Part shown: positions 3,310 through 6,240 of the stretch, one piece after another
How the letters are laid out: every line of letters starts with the position of its first letter
How positions within the stretch are numbered: the stretch's first letter is position 1
The notes under the pieces: model-generated
Told to the model about the DNA's origin: nothing
The model's input: only the letters and a program-made list of their open reading frames with translations
Database searches by the model: none
Source: Anaerolineaceae bacterium
GTDB taxonomy: Bacteria; Chloroflexota; Anaerolineae; Anaerolineales; Anaerolineaceae
Assembly: GCA_016841445.1 (NCBI GenBank)
Contig: JAENZD010000008.1
Coordinates: 1 to 41,195, forward strand
DNA length: 41,195 nucleotides
Direction of reading: 5' to 3'
Position numbers and translations under genes: made by a program

Positions 3310-3984
3310 TTAGCAATTTTGTTTCAATGACTGGAACAGCTCAGCCCAATCGGGTTGGCCATGTTTTTCCGATTCGATCACTTCAAAGGTTGTACATTCG
3401 AATTGAGGATATTGTAATGCATTCAGGCAGGTTTCGGCGACAGCAAACCGGCTGATCGTCCCCATGATGCGATCTCCCTGGTCAAAGATCAAGCCGCATT
3501 TGCCATTCCTCTTATCCACCAACCCCCCGGGGCGGATGATCGTGTATCTCAACCCACTTTCGCGCAAGGTTTCTTCCCCCTTTAATTTCCAATCTAACAC
3601 ATTGCCAAAGCTGTTCAGGGGATGTTCTGAATGGGTGACCGCGATCGAGGATATTAAAACGAAGCGCTCCACCCTGTTCGTTTGCGCCGCTTTTACCAAA
3701 TTTACAACTCCCAGGTAATCCACATTTTTTGGGCAGTTCTTCCCCACGGGCGTTTGGGTGCCAATTGCTGAGATGACTGTGTTGATACCAGCAAAATGGG
3801 GGACTAACGATTCCAGGTCTCGGATGTCACTTCTATGATAGGTGACCAGCTCACCCAAGATTTTTTGGGCTGCTCCAATATCCCTCACAAGGACATGAGG
3901 GGTGATTCCCATCCTTAGAAGATTTCTAACAATAATACGACCAGTTCGACCCGTTGCACCGGCAACGAGAATATTTTTACCCAT
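3310..3984 (-). CDS. NAD(P)-binding atypical SDR / NmrA-like protein
   Basis: A 224-residue Rossmann-fold protein. The N-terminal glycine motif is GATGRTGR (residues 9-16), typical of atypical short-chain dehydrogenases such as NAD(P)H-binding, NmrA and SDR5-like proteins. Further SDR features are an ISAIGT strand near residue 70 and a TIIRPGGLVD segment near 150. No clear YxxxK catalytic pair is visible, so it may be a sensor or an atypical reductase. AAAGGT precedes the ATG. It sits 42 bp after the selenocysteine peroxiredoxin and 16 bp before the membrane-hydrolase gene. A redox role with the peroxiredoxin is an inference from context only. Confidence 0.85.
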   Translation of the reverse strand: MGKNILVAGATGRTGRIIVRNLLRMGITPHVLVRDIGAAQKILGELVTYHRSDIRDLESLVPHFAGINTVISAIGTQTPVGKNCPKNVDYLGVVNLVKAAQTNRVERFVLISSIAVTHSEHPLNSFGNVLDWKLKGEETLRESGLRYTIIRPGGLVDKRNGKCGLIFDQGDRIMGTISRFAVAETCLNALQYPQFECTTFEVIESEKHGQPDWAELFQSLKQNC

Positions 3985-4026: not shown

Positions 4027-4500
4027 TTACCGGTTCAAATCATCAATCTTAGCTAAGATCTCCTTGTTATCGGGGATGTCAGACATTGAATTGGAATAAT
4101 GTACATATTGTAAAACACCATTTTTATCGATGAGCATTTGGGCTGGGACCCGGCCGAATTTTAGAATGTTTACTTCCTGCTCATATTTTTTTGCGACCTT
4201 GTGTTTCGGGTCGGCCAAACCAATAAAGGGGATCTCTTTTTGCTTCCAAAAATTTTGAAAGTCTTTTTTTGAATCAGGTCCCACTGCAATCACAACGGTG
4301 TTTCTTTTTTTGAATGCTTCATAATCCTGGCGCAACTGCACCATGTGCCCGCGGCAGTATGGTCAGGTAAATCCCCGGTTGAAAACCAGGAATACATTCT
4401 GTTTGCCTTCAAAATCAGACAGGGTGATTTTTTCACCCCGAGTATTTTCAAGCTTGAAATCAGGTGGTTTTTCTCCTACTTTAACTTTGTTGTTGCTCAT
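4027..4500 (-). CDS. Selenocysteine-containing peroxiredoxin (UPYC, in-frame TGA at 4363-4365)
   Basis: Read from the ATG at 4500, the frame is open for 157 codons except for one TGA at codon 46. The context is FNRGFT-TGA-PYCRGHM. Homologous AhpC/TSA-family proteins carry Cys at that place in a CPYC motif, so reading TGA as selenocysteine gives a UxxC redox centre. The flanking sequence is conserved-looking on both sides: GEKPPDFKLEN before, and VGPDS, GLADP, GRVPAQMLIDKNG and HYSNSMSDIPDN after. A SECIS-like hairpin follows the TGA (4328-4343). The ATG overlaps the stop of the upstream hydrolase gene as ATGA, implying translational coupling and confirming this start. The product would reduce peroxides or act as a thiol oxidoreductase. 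A nonsense mutation is the alternative; the rest of the frame shows no decay. Conventional annotation would start at Met53 (4344) and lose the active site. Confidence 0.82.
4328..4343 (-). promoter_or_regulatory. Bacterial SECIS-like hairpin after the in-frame TGA
   Basis: On the coding (minus) strand, TGGTGC-AGTT-GCGCCA forms a 6-bp stem with one G-U pair and a four-base loop. The apical loop begins 25 nt after the TGA and has G as its second base. As I recall the bacterial SECIS rules, the loop lies about 16-37 nt after UGA with a G among its first two bases, and this hairpin satisfies them. It lies inside the coding region, as bacterial SECIS elements do, and would recruit SelB. Confidence 0.65.
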
Positions 4501-5480
4501 GTTTCTCCTTGGGTTTGGGAGTTTATAAAATTCTTGATGATTTGGATGAATGCTTCAGGGCATTCTTCCTGGGGGAGATGTCCGCAGTTCTGCAGGATTT
4601 CCAATTCAGCCCCCGGGATATCTTCCGCCAGCTGGATGCTGTTTTCCAGCGGGACGATCCGGTCATCCGCACCGCTGATGACGAGGGAGGGGACCTGGAT
4701 TTGGGCCAGTTTTTCAGCCAGGCCAGGGGGTTGGGATGCTTGTGTAAATGCCCACAACGCCTGGTCCCAGTGTTCGGATTGGGTTGCTTTCTGGTAGCCG
4801 GCTGTGATCTCAGGGTTTTCTTTTAGGATCGTGGGGTCACTCCAGGCCATTTCAAGGAAATTTTCACCACGATTTTGAATAAAGTATCGCACAAACAAAG
4901 GTCCAATGCGGTCCATCTGAGGGGTGTTAATGAGCCACTGAAACAGCTTTGAATCAGGGGACGTTTGGTAAATTGCTGCATCCACCTCGACCAAAGCTAT
5001 CACTCTTTCCGGGTGATCCAGAGTGAACGCGGTTGCCAGTGTACCCCCTGCTGAATTGCCTACCAGGATAGCTTTTTCAATCTGCAAGGCGTTCATTAAA
5101 CCCAATAGCAATTCTGTATTGCTCTCCTGGGAGTAGGGGTTGTCCCCTTCCCATGCCAAAGGACGTTCCGTTAATCCAAAGGCTGGCCGGTCATAAGCGA
5201 TTACAGTGCCGATTTCTGAAAAAGGAGCCATAACCTCGCGCCATGAAAAAGTGCTGGCACCGAAGCCATGCAGCAGGATGAAGACCGGTTCACCGGAACC
5301 CATCTTTTTGTAATGGATATTGATGTTGTTTATTTCGATAAACATGCTGTCCGGATCTGCCAAAGCCTGAGCAGGTTGCGTGTTTTCAAGCGGCGGGATC
5401 GGTACAAGGAAAGGACCGACCAGGATCAAGAATAGCAGTGATGCCAAGACAATTAAGGTGATTTTCCATCCTTTTTTCAT
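4497..5480 (-). CDS. Membrane-anchored alpha/beta hydrolase
   Basis: A 327-residue protein with an N-terminal hydrophobic segment (residues 7-28) that is either an uncleaved anchor or a signal peptide. A canonical alpha/beta hydrolase fold follows: LLHGFGAS, the nucleophile elbow GNSAGG (Ser near 142), an Asp in GADDRIVP near 270, and the catalytic His in NCGHLPQEE near 298. The likely location is the outer face of the membrane. AAGGGGA precedes the ATG. Its TGA stop overlaps the ATG of the selenoprotein gene, and it begins 13 bp after the previous hydrolase gene, so these three are almost certainly one transcript. It belongs to the large esterase/haloperoxidase/epoxide-hydrolase group; the substrate cannot be read from sequence. 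Confidence 0.9.
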   Translation of the reverse strand: MKKGWKITLIVLASLLFLILVGPFLVPIPPLENTQPAQALADPDSMFIEINNINIHYKKMGSGEPVFILLHGFGASTFSWREVMAPFSEIGTVIAYDRPAFGLTERPLAWEGDNPYSQESNTELLLGLMNALQIEKAILVGNSAGGTLATAFTLDHPERVIALVEVDAAIYQTSPDSKLFQWLINTPQMDRIGPLFVRYFIQNRGENFLEMAWSDPTILKENPEITAGYQKATQSEHWDQALWAFTQASQPPGLAEKLAQIQVPSLVISGADDRIVPLENSIQLAEDIPGAELEILQNCGHLPQEECPEAFIQIIKNFINSQTQGET

Positions 5481-5493
5481 ACCAGTTCCCCTT

Positions 5494-6240
5494 TCATTGG
5501 TTTAATCCTTCCAAAAATATTATTGTCACATTGATAATTTGTTCTTGTTGATTGGTTTTGGTTATTTCGGCTTGCCCATCGCCATTTTGTGGGCCATACC
5601 AGCCAAATCCGGCATGGTTGCCGCCCTGGATTTCCACATAAGATGTCTCATCAGGCAGGTTGGCGCGGGATGCATCAATATCCTGGATCGTTGCCAACCC
5701 GTCGTTGGTGGCGTATATGGAGATGACTTCCAGGTCTGATTTGGAAAGGTCGTTATTCCCAGCCGGGTAGGATGCCCAAAACACCAGACCTTCGACTTCC
5801 TGAAGGTTTGAGCTGGCATACTGGGCTGCCATCGCACCACCTAATGAATGTCCGCCCACTGCCCAATGATCGATATCAGGAAAAGATGCTATCACCTCGG
5901 ATACCTGGTTGAGTCCAAAAAATGCGAAGTTCAGCGGCATCCGTACCACAACCACAAGGAAGCCGGATTCTGCAATTTTGTGGGCAAGAGGGGCATAGGC
6001 GCGGTAATCAACCCGGCCTCCCGGGTAGAAAATCAGACCGGTCGACGCAACCTCTCCCTTTGGTAAAAAAACCAGCCAACCGTCCATATTTTGGTATTCC
6101 ACTGTCGTGGATGATCCCAGGTTATCCAAAGCTGTTTGCTCAGGATTCGCCGGGTTTGAAGCCCAGATTAAGAACCCTGCAGCAATGAGAATAAGTAATG
6201 CCAGGGAAACAAAACCAAGATAGCGTAAATGTCGTTTCAT
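5494..6240 (-). CDS. Secreted or membrane-anchored alpha/beta hydrolase (Abhydrolase_5-like)
   Basis: A 248-residue protein with an N-terminal hydrophobic segment (residues 8-28) and a compact hydrolase domain: the strand GLIFYPGG near 75, nucleophile motif GGHSLGG near 130, an acidic site in YATNDGL near 178, and the catalytic His in GGNHAGFG near 208. The pattern fits the short family often listed as alpha/beta hydrolase family 5, whose members resemble dienelactone hydrolases and exported esterases. AGAGG lies a few bases before the ATG. It is the first gene of the minus-strand cluster and diverges from the aldehyde dehydrogenase gene. The substrate is unknown. Confidence 0.88.
   Translation of the reverse strand: MKRHLRYLGFVSLALLILIAAGFLIWASNPANPEQTALDNLGSSTTVEYQNMDGWLVFLPKGEVASTGLIFYPGGRVDYRAYAPLAHKIAESGFLVVVVRMPLNFAFFGLNQVSEVIASFPDIDHWAVGGHSLGGAMAAQYASSNLQEVEGLVFWASYPAGNNDLSKSDLEVISIYATNDGLATIQDIDASRANLPDETSYVEIQGGNHAGFGWYGPQNGDGQAEITKTNQQEQIINVTIIFLEGLNQ

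Follow-up and report, generated by a model that had tools for sequence, protein, structure and literature searches.

Prx-like proteins with a UxxC motif were already listed among the known selenoprotein families in 2005 (PMC1088965), and a 'Prx-like thiol:disulfide oxidoreductase' with the domain PF00578 and a UxxC or UxxU motif stands as a predicted selenoprotein in Table 1 of PMC13188914 and in PMC9312934. The legend to Fig. 2 of PMC13188914 describes the bacterial SECIS (bSECIS) that accompanies such genes as a stem of 4-16 bp closed by a loop of 3-9 nt with a G in one of the first two loop positions, the loop lying 16-37 nt after the UGA, with a minimum free energy of -7.5 kcal/mol or lower. 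Prx-like selenoproteins, designated prxL, have also been reported in Asgard archaea (PMC11227280). Some of the literature mentions both selenocysteine and Chloroflexi; among the matches listed for selenocysteine in Chloroflexi, Chloroflexota, Anaerolineae or Thermomicrobium, no title was devoted to the gene considered here.

This gene lies in a 41,195-nucleotide stretch of DNA from an Anaerolineaceae bacterium, referred to below as the window. It appears split by a TGA codon, and its sequence leads us to predict, with a probability of about 95%, that it encodes a full-length, 157-aa Prx-fold selenoprotein with a Sec-Pro-Tyr-Cys active site. The features of the locus are the following.

4030-4500, minus strand: predicted Prx-like UxxC selenoprotein CDS of 157 aa, with its stop codon at 4029-4027 (frame, Pfam, pLDDT).
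4363-4365, minus strand: in-frame TGA at codon 46, taken as selenocysteine; of 110 distinct aligned loci, 99 have TGA here and nine have TGC/TGT.
4354-4356, minus strand: TGC encoding Cys49, the partner cysteine of the UxxC motif; Cys in all 99 TGA rows.
4328-4343 (core 4329-4342), minus strand: putative apical hairpin of a bacterial SECIS, UGGUGC-AGUU-GCGCCA (fold, codon conservation).
4334-4337, minus strand: apical loop AGUU, 26-29 nt past the TGA, whose second base is G; 74 of the 99 TGA rows have AGUU closed by a perfect 5-bp stem.
4497-5480, minus strand: alpha/beta hydrolase directly upstream, whose TGA stop overlaps the selenoprotein ATG (4 nt).
5494-6240, minus strand: second alpha/beta hydrolase (PF12695), at the head of the same gene cluster.
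3310-3984, minus strand: NAD(P)-binding protein (PF13460) downstream; a homologue adjoins the gene at each of the six further loci examined from the genus.

The gene reads from 4500 down to 4027 as 157 codons with a single in-frame TGA, codon 46 (4365-4363), and when U is written for TGA the translation is one 157-residue protein whose sole U, at position 46, sits in the context RGFT-U-PYC-RGH. An earlier note on this DNA, made from the letters alone, had described a 157-codon frame interrupted by one TGA at this place; the frame proved to be real, and the strand, which the note had left unstated, is established here as minus, the plus strand of the same frame being interrupted by TAA stops. 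The coherent AhpC/TSA-family sequence that the note had seen on both sides of the TGA corresponds to one domain covering both, since PF00578 matches residues 8-133 (E = 5.5e-29; 101.1 bits against a gathering score of 26) and PF08534 residues 7-139 (E = 4.3e-24). Likewise, the next ATG after the TGA is at 4344, as the note had said, and it is there that the post-TGA ORF of 105 aa in the mechanical ORF list begins. Together with the two hydrolases and the NAD(P)-binding protein, the gene belongs to a minus-strand cluster. A homologue of the hydrolase of the window, or of that of Thermomicrobium roseum (see below), was found at 15 of the 54 TGA loci having at least 900 nt of upstream sequence, indicating a neighbourhood common to some of these loci and not to all.

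The earlier note had supposed that SelA, SelB, SelC and SelD would be encoded outside the window, and had proposed a search of the genome for selA, selB, selD and tRNA-Sec. All four were found in the same genome (3.35 Mb, 8 contigs, 98.85% complete): SelA at 432 bits, SelB at 343 bits (cut-off 242), SelD at 333 bits and a tRNA-Sec with the anticodon TCA at 69.5 bits (cut-off 47). The SelD of this genome carries an in-frame TGA of its own (SSCAG-U-ASKL; L054 1475-2440, G000:C6). Of the 28 window ORFs taken as genes, 12 terminate in TGA, so that TGA is a normal stop in this genome, and a general reassignment of the code was rejected on the same count.

We then compared codon 46 across homologues. 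A total of 114 loci were collected (L091-L093 and L098 having been excluded beforehand as repeats), 113 of which could be aligned at the codon, leaving 110 distinct loci after the removal of three repeats. In this column, TGA is found 99 times and TGC or TGT nine times, which answers the question raised in the earlier note of whether homologues carry Cys or Sec at position 46; the loci were drawn mostly from best matches, so that the proportion of 99 in 110 should not be taken as a frequency in the population. The two remaining loci, L052 and L053, are out of register and were excluded from the TGA and Cys counts, the sequence of the latter being that of an ordinary BCP-like protein. Codon +3 is TGC in 92 and TGT in seven of the TGA rows. 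The base 3' of the TGA (window 4362) is C in 93 of the 99 rows, mostly as part of Pro codons, while the base 5' of it (window 4366) is C in 64, with ACC or GCC at codon -1 in 42 of 45 Thr/Ala rows; ACC also occupies codon -1 in four of the nine Cys rows. This flanking of the TGA by C may be a stop-codon context effect. The window's genome also has a second UxxC paralogue, L051 (G000:C3:368551-369003, minus strand), which is 42% identical and possesses a TGA and the same hairpin. L052 (1300-2150; G000:C3:1523852-1524301, minus strand) is a recent duplicate of L051 (89% DNA identity) that has decayed: it is out of frame near the active site and has lost the second active-site Cys, with the hairpin sequence intact. 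A scan of genome contigs gave one homologous locus, and a scan of viral sequences for homologues gave none.

The distribution of the TGA form follows that of SelA. In the same family, 101 genomes were compared, the window's own among them; 57 of these encode a homologue of at least 138 bits with one in-frame TGA, and SelA is present in 56 of the 57. This form occurs in 56 of 88 SelA-positive genomes versus one of 13 SelA-less genomes (Fisher p = 1.5e-4), where genomes with only weaker TGA matches (G072, G053, G013, G050 and G060 among them) are counted as without. The Cys forms do not simply reflect a loss of the machinery, given that SelB scored above the cut-off in all seven genomes searched (G045, G018, G327, G118, G146, G391 and G105) of the nine that have them.

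The core of the hairpin, GGYGC-AGUU-GCGCC, is located 21-34 nt after the TGA. The earlier note had placed a hairpin with a G in its apical loop 25 nt past the TGA, in agreement with a loop AGUU that starts 26 nt after it, leaving 25 nt between. With a 4-nt loop, a 6-bp stem, a G at loop position 2, a spacing of 25 nt and a folding energy of -8.9 kcal/mol, the hairpin falls within every range of the bSECIS description in the Fig. 2 legend of PMC13188914, which bears out the SECIS proposed in the note, although geometry alone is not very specific: leaving the energy limit aside, the published geometry is found in 99 of 99 TGA rows and also in seven of nine Cys rows, and therefore discriminates poorly and supports little. 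Taken alone, the hairpin, a stretch picked by eye, has a z-score of -2.55. The 48 nt from the TGA onwards fold no better than shuffled sequences (z = 0.21), the hairpin is the centroid of this region and not its minimum-energy fold, and the mean folding energies after the codon are similar in TGA rows (-14.1) and Cys rows (-14.6), so that folding energy alone supports nothing.

The comparative evidence from codon choice is stronger than that from folding. A perfect 5-bp stem is present in 78 of the 99 TGA rows, as compared with a mean of 5.7 and a maximum of 16 in 500 synonymous resamplings drawn from the family's own codon use, and the same stem with an AGUU loop is present in 74 rows, as compared with a mean of 0.9 and a maximum of 4. 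When one stem arm was shifted as a slide control, the stem was found in 0-3 of 99 rows. In line with this, codons +8, +9 and +10 are nearly frozen synonymously (entropy ratios of 0.22, 0.15 and 0.27), most other columns lying at 0.7-1.0, with low values also at -1, +3 and +5 (0.18, 0.43 and 0.39). Within the TGA rows, Ala at +8 is encoded by GCG in 84 of 90 cases, Gln at +9 by CAG in 79 of 79, and Leu at +10 by TTG in 84 of 94. Across the 78 rows with the perfect stem, pair 22/33 is G-C in 50, G-U in 22, A-U in five and U-G in one; pair 21/34 is G-C in 75, C-G in two and U-A in one; pair 23/32 is C-G in 76 and U-G in two; pair 24/31 is G-C in 77 and C-G in one; and pair 25/30 is invariant. This 5-bp stem with its AGUU loop was seen in none of the nine Cys homologues. 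Counting a perfect stem at either of two positions (see below) with a loop of 4 or 5 nt, the hairpin is present in 94 of 99 TGA rows versus one of nine Cys rows, namely L120, which retains a 5-bp stem in the same place with the loop AGCUG; another Cys row, L081, has an 8-bp hairpin of a different shape. The remaining five TGA rows, one of them archaeal, have none of the tested hairpins. At the level of sequence comparison, these data indicate that the hairpin is kept through synonymous codon choice far beyond the needs of the protein.

The same gene is carried by the megaplasmid of T. roseum (NC_011961.1), the only one examined among the 73 plasmid records that gave matches. There, the active site reads RGLR-U-PYC (L138 2495-2956), an alpha/beta hydrolase overlaps the gene upstream in an arrangement similar to that in the window, and a hairpin GGCGC-AGUU-GCGCC lies at the same spacing, with a 41-nt fold of -16.9 kcal/mol (z = -2.37). 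The T. roseum gene table, taken from an incomplete PLSDB table, has a single entry here, a 129-nt 'hypothetical protein' that stops at the TGA, and no gene for the remainder. SelA was not found on this megaplasmid.

The alternative that survives best, although we regard it as improbable, is that a standard amino acid, not Sec, is inserted at the UGA, whether through a reassigned code or through Cys/Trp readthrough by a near-cognate tRNA. A UGA-C context favours readthrough, and C follows the TGA in 93 of 99 rows and precedes it in 64. In two genomes, moreover, TGA forms occur although no Sec machinery was detected: G073 (90% complete, 440 contigs), the single SelA-less genome counted above as having the TGA form, with L044 and L068, and G013 (95% complete, 10 contigs), with the weaker and more distant homologue L090 of a distant subfamily. 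Neither has SelA or a SelB above the cut-off, which could reflect incomplete assembly, contamination, or selenoprotein genes that outlast the loss of the machinery. Against such a reading, the TGA form is associated with SelA across the family, the Sec machinery is complete in the window's genome, 12 of the 28 window ORFs end in TGA, and this particular hairpin is kept in TGA rows while almost all Cys rows lack it.

It is less probable again, and in our view very unlikely, that the gene is broken, the TGA being a nonsense mutation in a cysteine protein at which translation stops or after which it restarts at ATG 4344. The 105-aa ORF that begins at this ATG and the existence of the decayed paralogue L052 in the same genome would fit such a reading. 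However, 99 of the 110 distinct loci have the same TGA codon, synonymous codon choice at the hairpin is constrained, and the amino acids are conserved on both sides of the TGA: in the seven same-genus pairs listed of 21 computed, pN/pS is 0.19-0.44 before the TGA and 0.21-0.35 after it, with pS values (0.60-0.99) that are high and near saturation. A restart was rejected because the internal start codon is not conserved, 31 of the 99 rows having a Leu codon at +7. Finally, a sequencing or assembly error from TGC to TGA, which are one base apart, has a negligible chance of explaining the codon and is refuted at the level of the family, where dozens of separate genomes have the same TGA, as does the T. 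roseum record.

The selenoprotein reading put forward in the earlier note is, in contrast, supported by the machinery, by the alignment of the TGA with the Cys of homologues, and by a hairpin of the bSECIS type. The frame, the presence of the machinery, the conservation of UGA and hairpin and the replacement by Cys in homologues are established for this gene, and we infer Sec incorporation as well as the chemistry and substrates of the 157-aa protein. In the mechanism that we propose, SelB with Sec-tRNA-Sec would recognise the AGUU-looped hairpin 25 nt past the UGA and deliver selenocysteine there, while a share of ribosomes probably terminates at the UGA instead. As judged from motif and fold, Sec46 would most likely be the nucleophile that attacks a disulfide or peroxide, and Cys49 would resolve the Sec46 intermediate with formation of a selenenyl-sulfide, the protein thus acting as a thiol/selenol:disulfide (or peroxide) reductase.

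The position of the hairpin differs in some relatives. In 14 TGA rows the stem lies 9 nt nearer to the TGA, with the loop AGUUG or AGUUA (CGUUG in three); synonymous resampling yields the shifted stem in a mean of 0.44 and a maximum of 4 of these 14 rows, which were pre-selected for having it. In a tree of 108 proteins from which the eight hairpin-coded residues had been removed, 13 of the shifted rows group in a single clade (support 100/99) and the fourteenth, L080, is nested separately among rows of the usual type, implying at least two shifts of the hairpin. At the old and new sites, the main shifted clade has QLARLR or SLARLR and near variants in place of HMAQLR. G343 carries both hairpin types in two paralogues (L107 and L122), suggesting that one cell reads both spacings. 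We are therefore inclined, with considerable reserve, to the view that the SECIS hairpin moved 9 nt toward the UGA at least twice within one family, the loop core (AGUU; CGUU in three rows) being kept and the amino acids being changed. If so, SelB in these bacteria would accept a GUU loop at either of two distances from the UGA, the residues next to the active site would have been shaped by the RNA signal, and the family would constitute a natural series in which SECIS spacing can be measured. The loop 'AGUU' was not found in the bacterial SECIS literature examined, which is weak evidence of absence.

More generally, the locus illustrates how a conserved redox protein is split in two by ordinary gene calling, including in the public record of the cultured T. 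roseum. With some hundred natural variants of the SECIS, which occur at two spacings, and with Cys homologues most of which have no such hairpin, the family makes recognition by SelB testable outside E. coli. The class of function is already known, and a specialist's surprise should be limited accordingly; the readthrough signal is unusually well documented here, and its relocation is the most interesting feature.

The structure model of the 157-aa protein (mean pLDDT 91, from an alignment of 31 sequences) places it among peroxiredoxins by fold. The three best Foldseek matches by E-value are all BCP proteins (9a4d; 3hjp, TM 0.87; 3drn, TM 0.84; TM by query length), and the ResA-like 4nmu gives a TM of 0.77. 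A profile alignment with 2ywn pairs Cys49 with the Cys of TxxC and Sec46 with the Thr, in a register identical to that against 3drn, and R42 and U46 occupy the Pro and Thr places of the canonical peroxiredoxin motif PxxxTxxC/U, which is thus absent. With Sec46 at the Thr and Cys49 at the peroxidatic position, the site is a thioredoxin-like UxxC on a peroxiredoxin fold. The 'peroxiredoxin' of the earlier note consequently stands for the fold and not for a canonical peroxiredoxin, while the UPYC site that it named is read in the translation as U46-P-Y-C49, with Cys at codon +3 in 99 of 99 TGA rows. The best NCBIfam match by E-value, the SelL-related NF040769, which matches all 31 members of alignment set A1, reaches 73.2 bits and lies below its curated cut-off of 120, and PrxU (NF040737) reaches 30.3 bits against a curated cut-off of 270.

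Compared with described systems, the protein shares its fold with BCP/PrxQ (TM 0.87 with PDB 3hjp and 0.84 with 3drn), whereas the two BCP/PrxQ chains examined, 2ywn and the 2cx3/3drn region, have no Cys in the place of Sec46. A peroxiredoxin fold and an active-site Sec are common to this protein and PrxU, for which PMC13188914 gives the motif TxxU; in PrxU, however, the Sec is at the peroxidatic position, which is occupied by Cys in the window protein, where the Sec stands at the Thr position. An Asgard contig of Jordarchaeum (L050) encodes a 42%-identical protein with a TGA at the same codon (RGIT-U-PYC), presumably the prxL of PMC11227280 as far as that report describes it. In contrast to the window gene, it shows no bacterial hairpin of the types tested downstream of the TGA; a 9-bp stem, GGGAAUAAA/UUUAUUCCC, lies just past its stop codon (L050 4450-4520; z = -1.65, with 10 of 200 shuffles equally good) and could be a 3'-UTR SECIS. 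With the published Prx-like UxxC selenoproteins, as they are summarised in the sources above, the window protein shares PF00578, the UxxC motif, a SECIS just downstream and the existence of Cys homologues, a likeness of domain and motif. On these grounds, the gene is a further example of the known Prx-like UxxC kind and not a new family, which does not imply a subfamily shared with the published representative WP_010940744.1; what distinguishes it from the published entries is that its predicted SECIS is traced here over about 100 related loci, at two positions.
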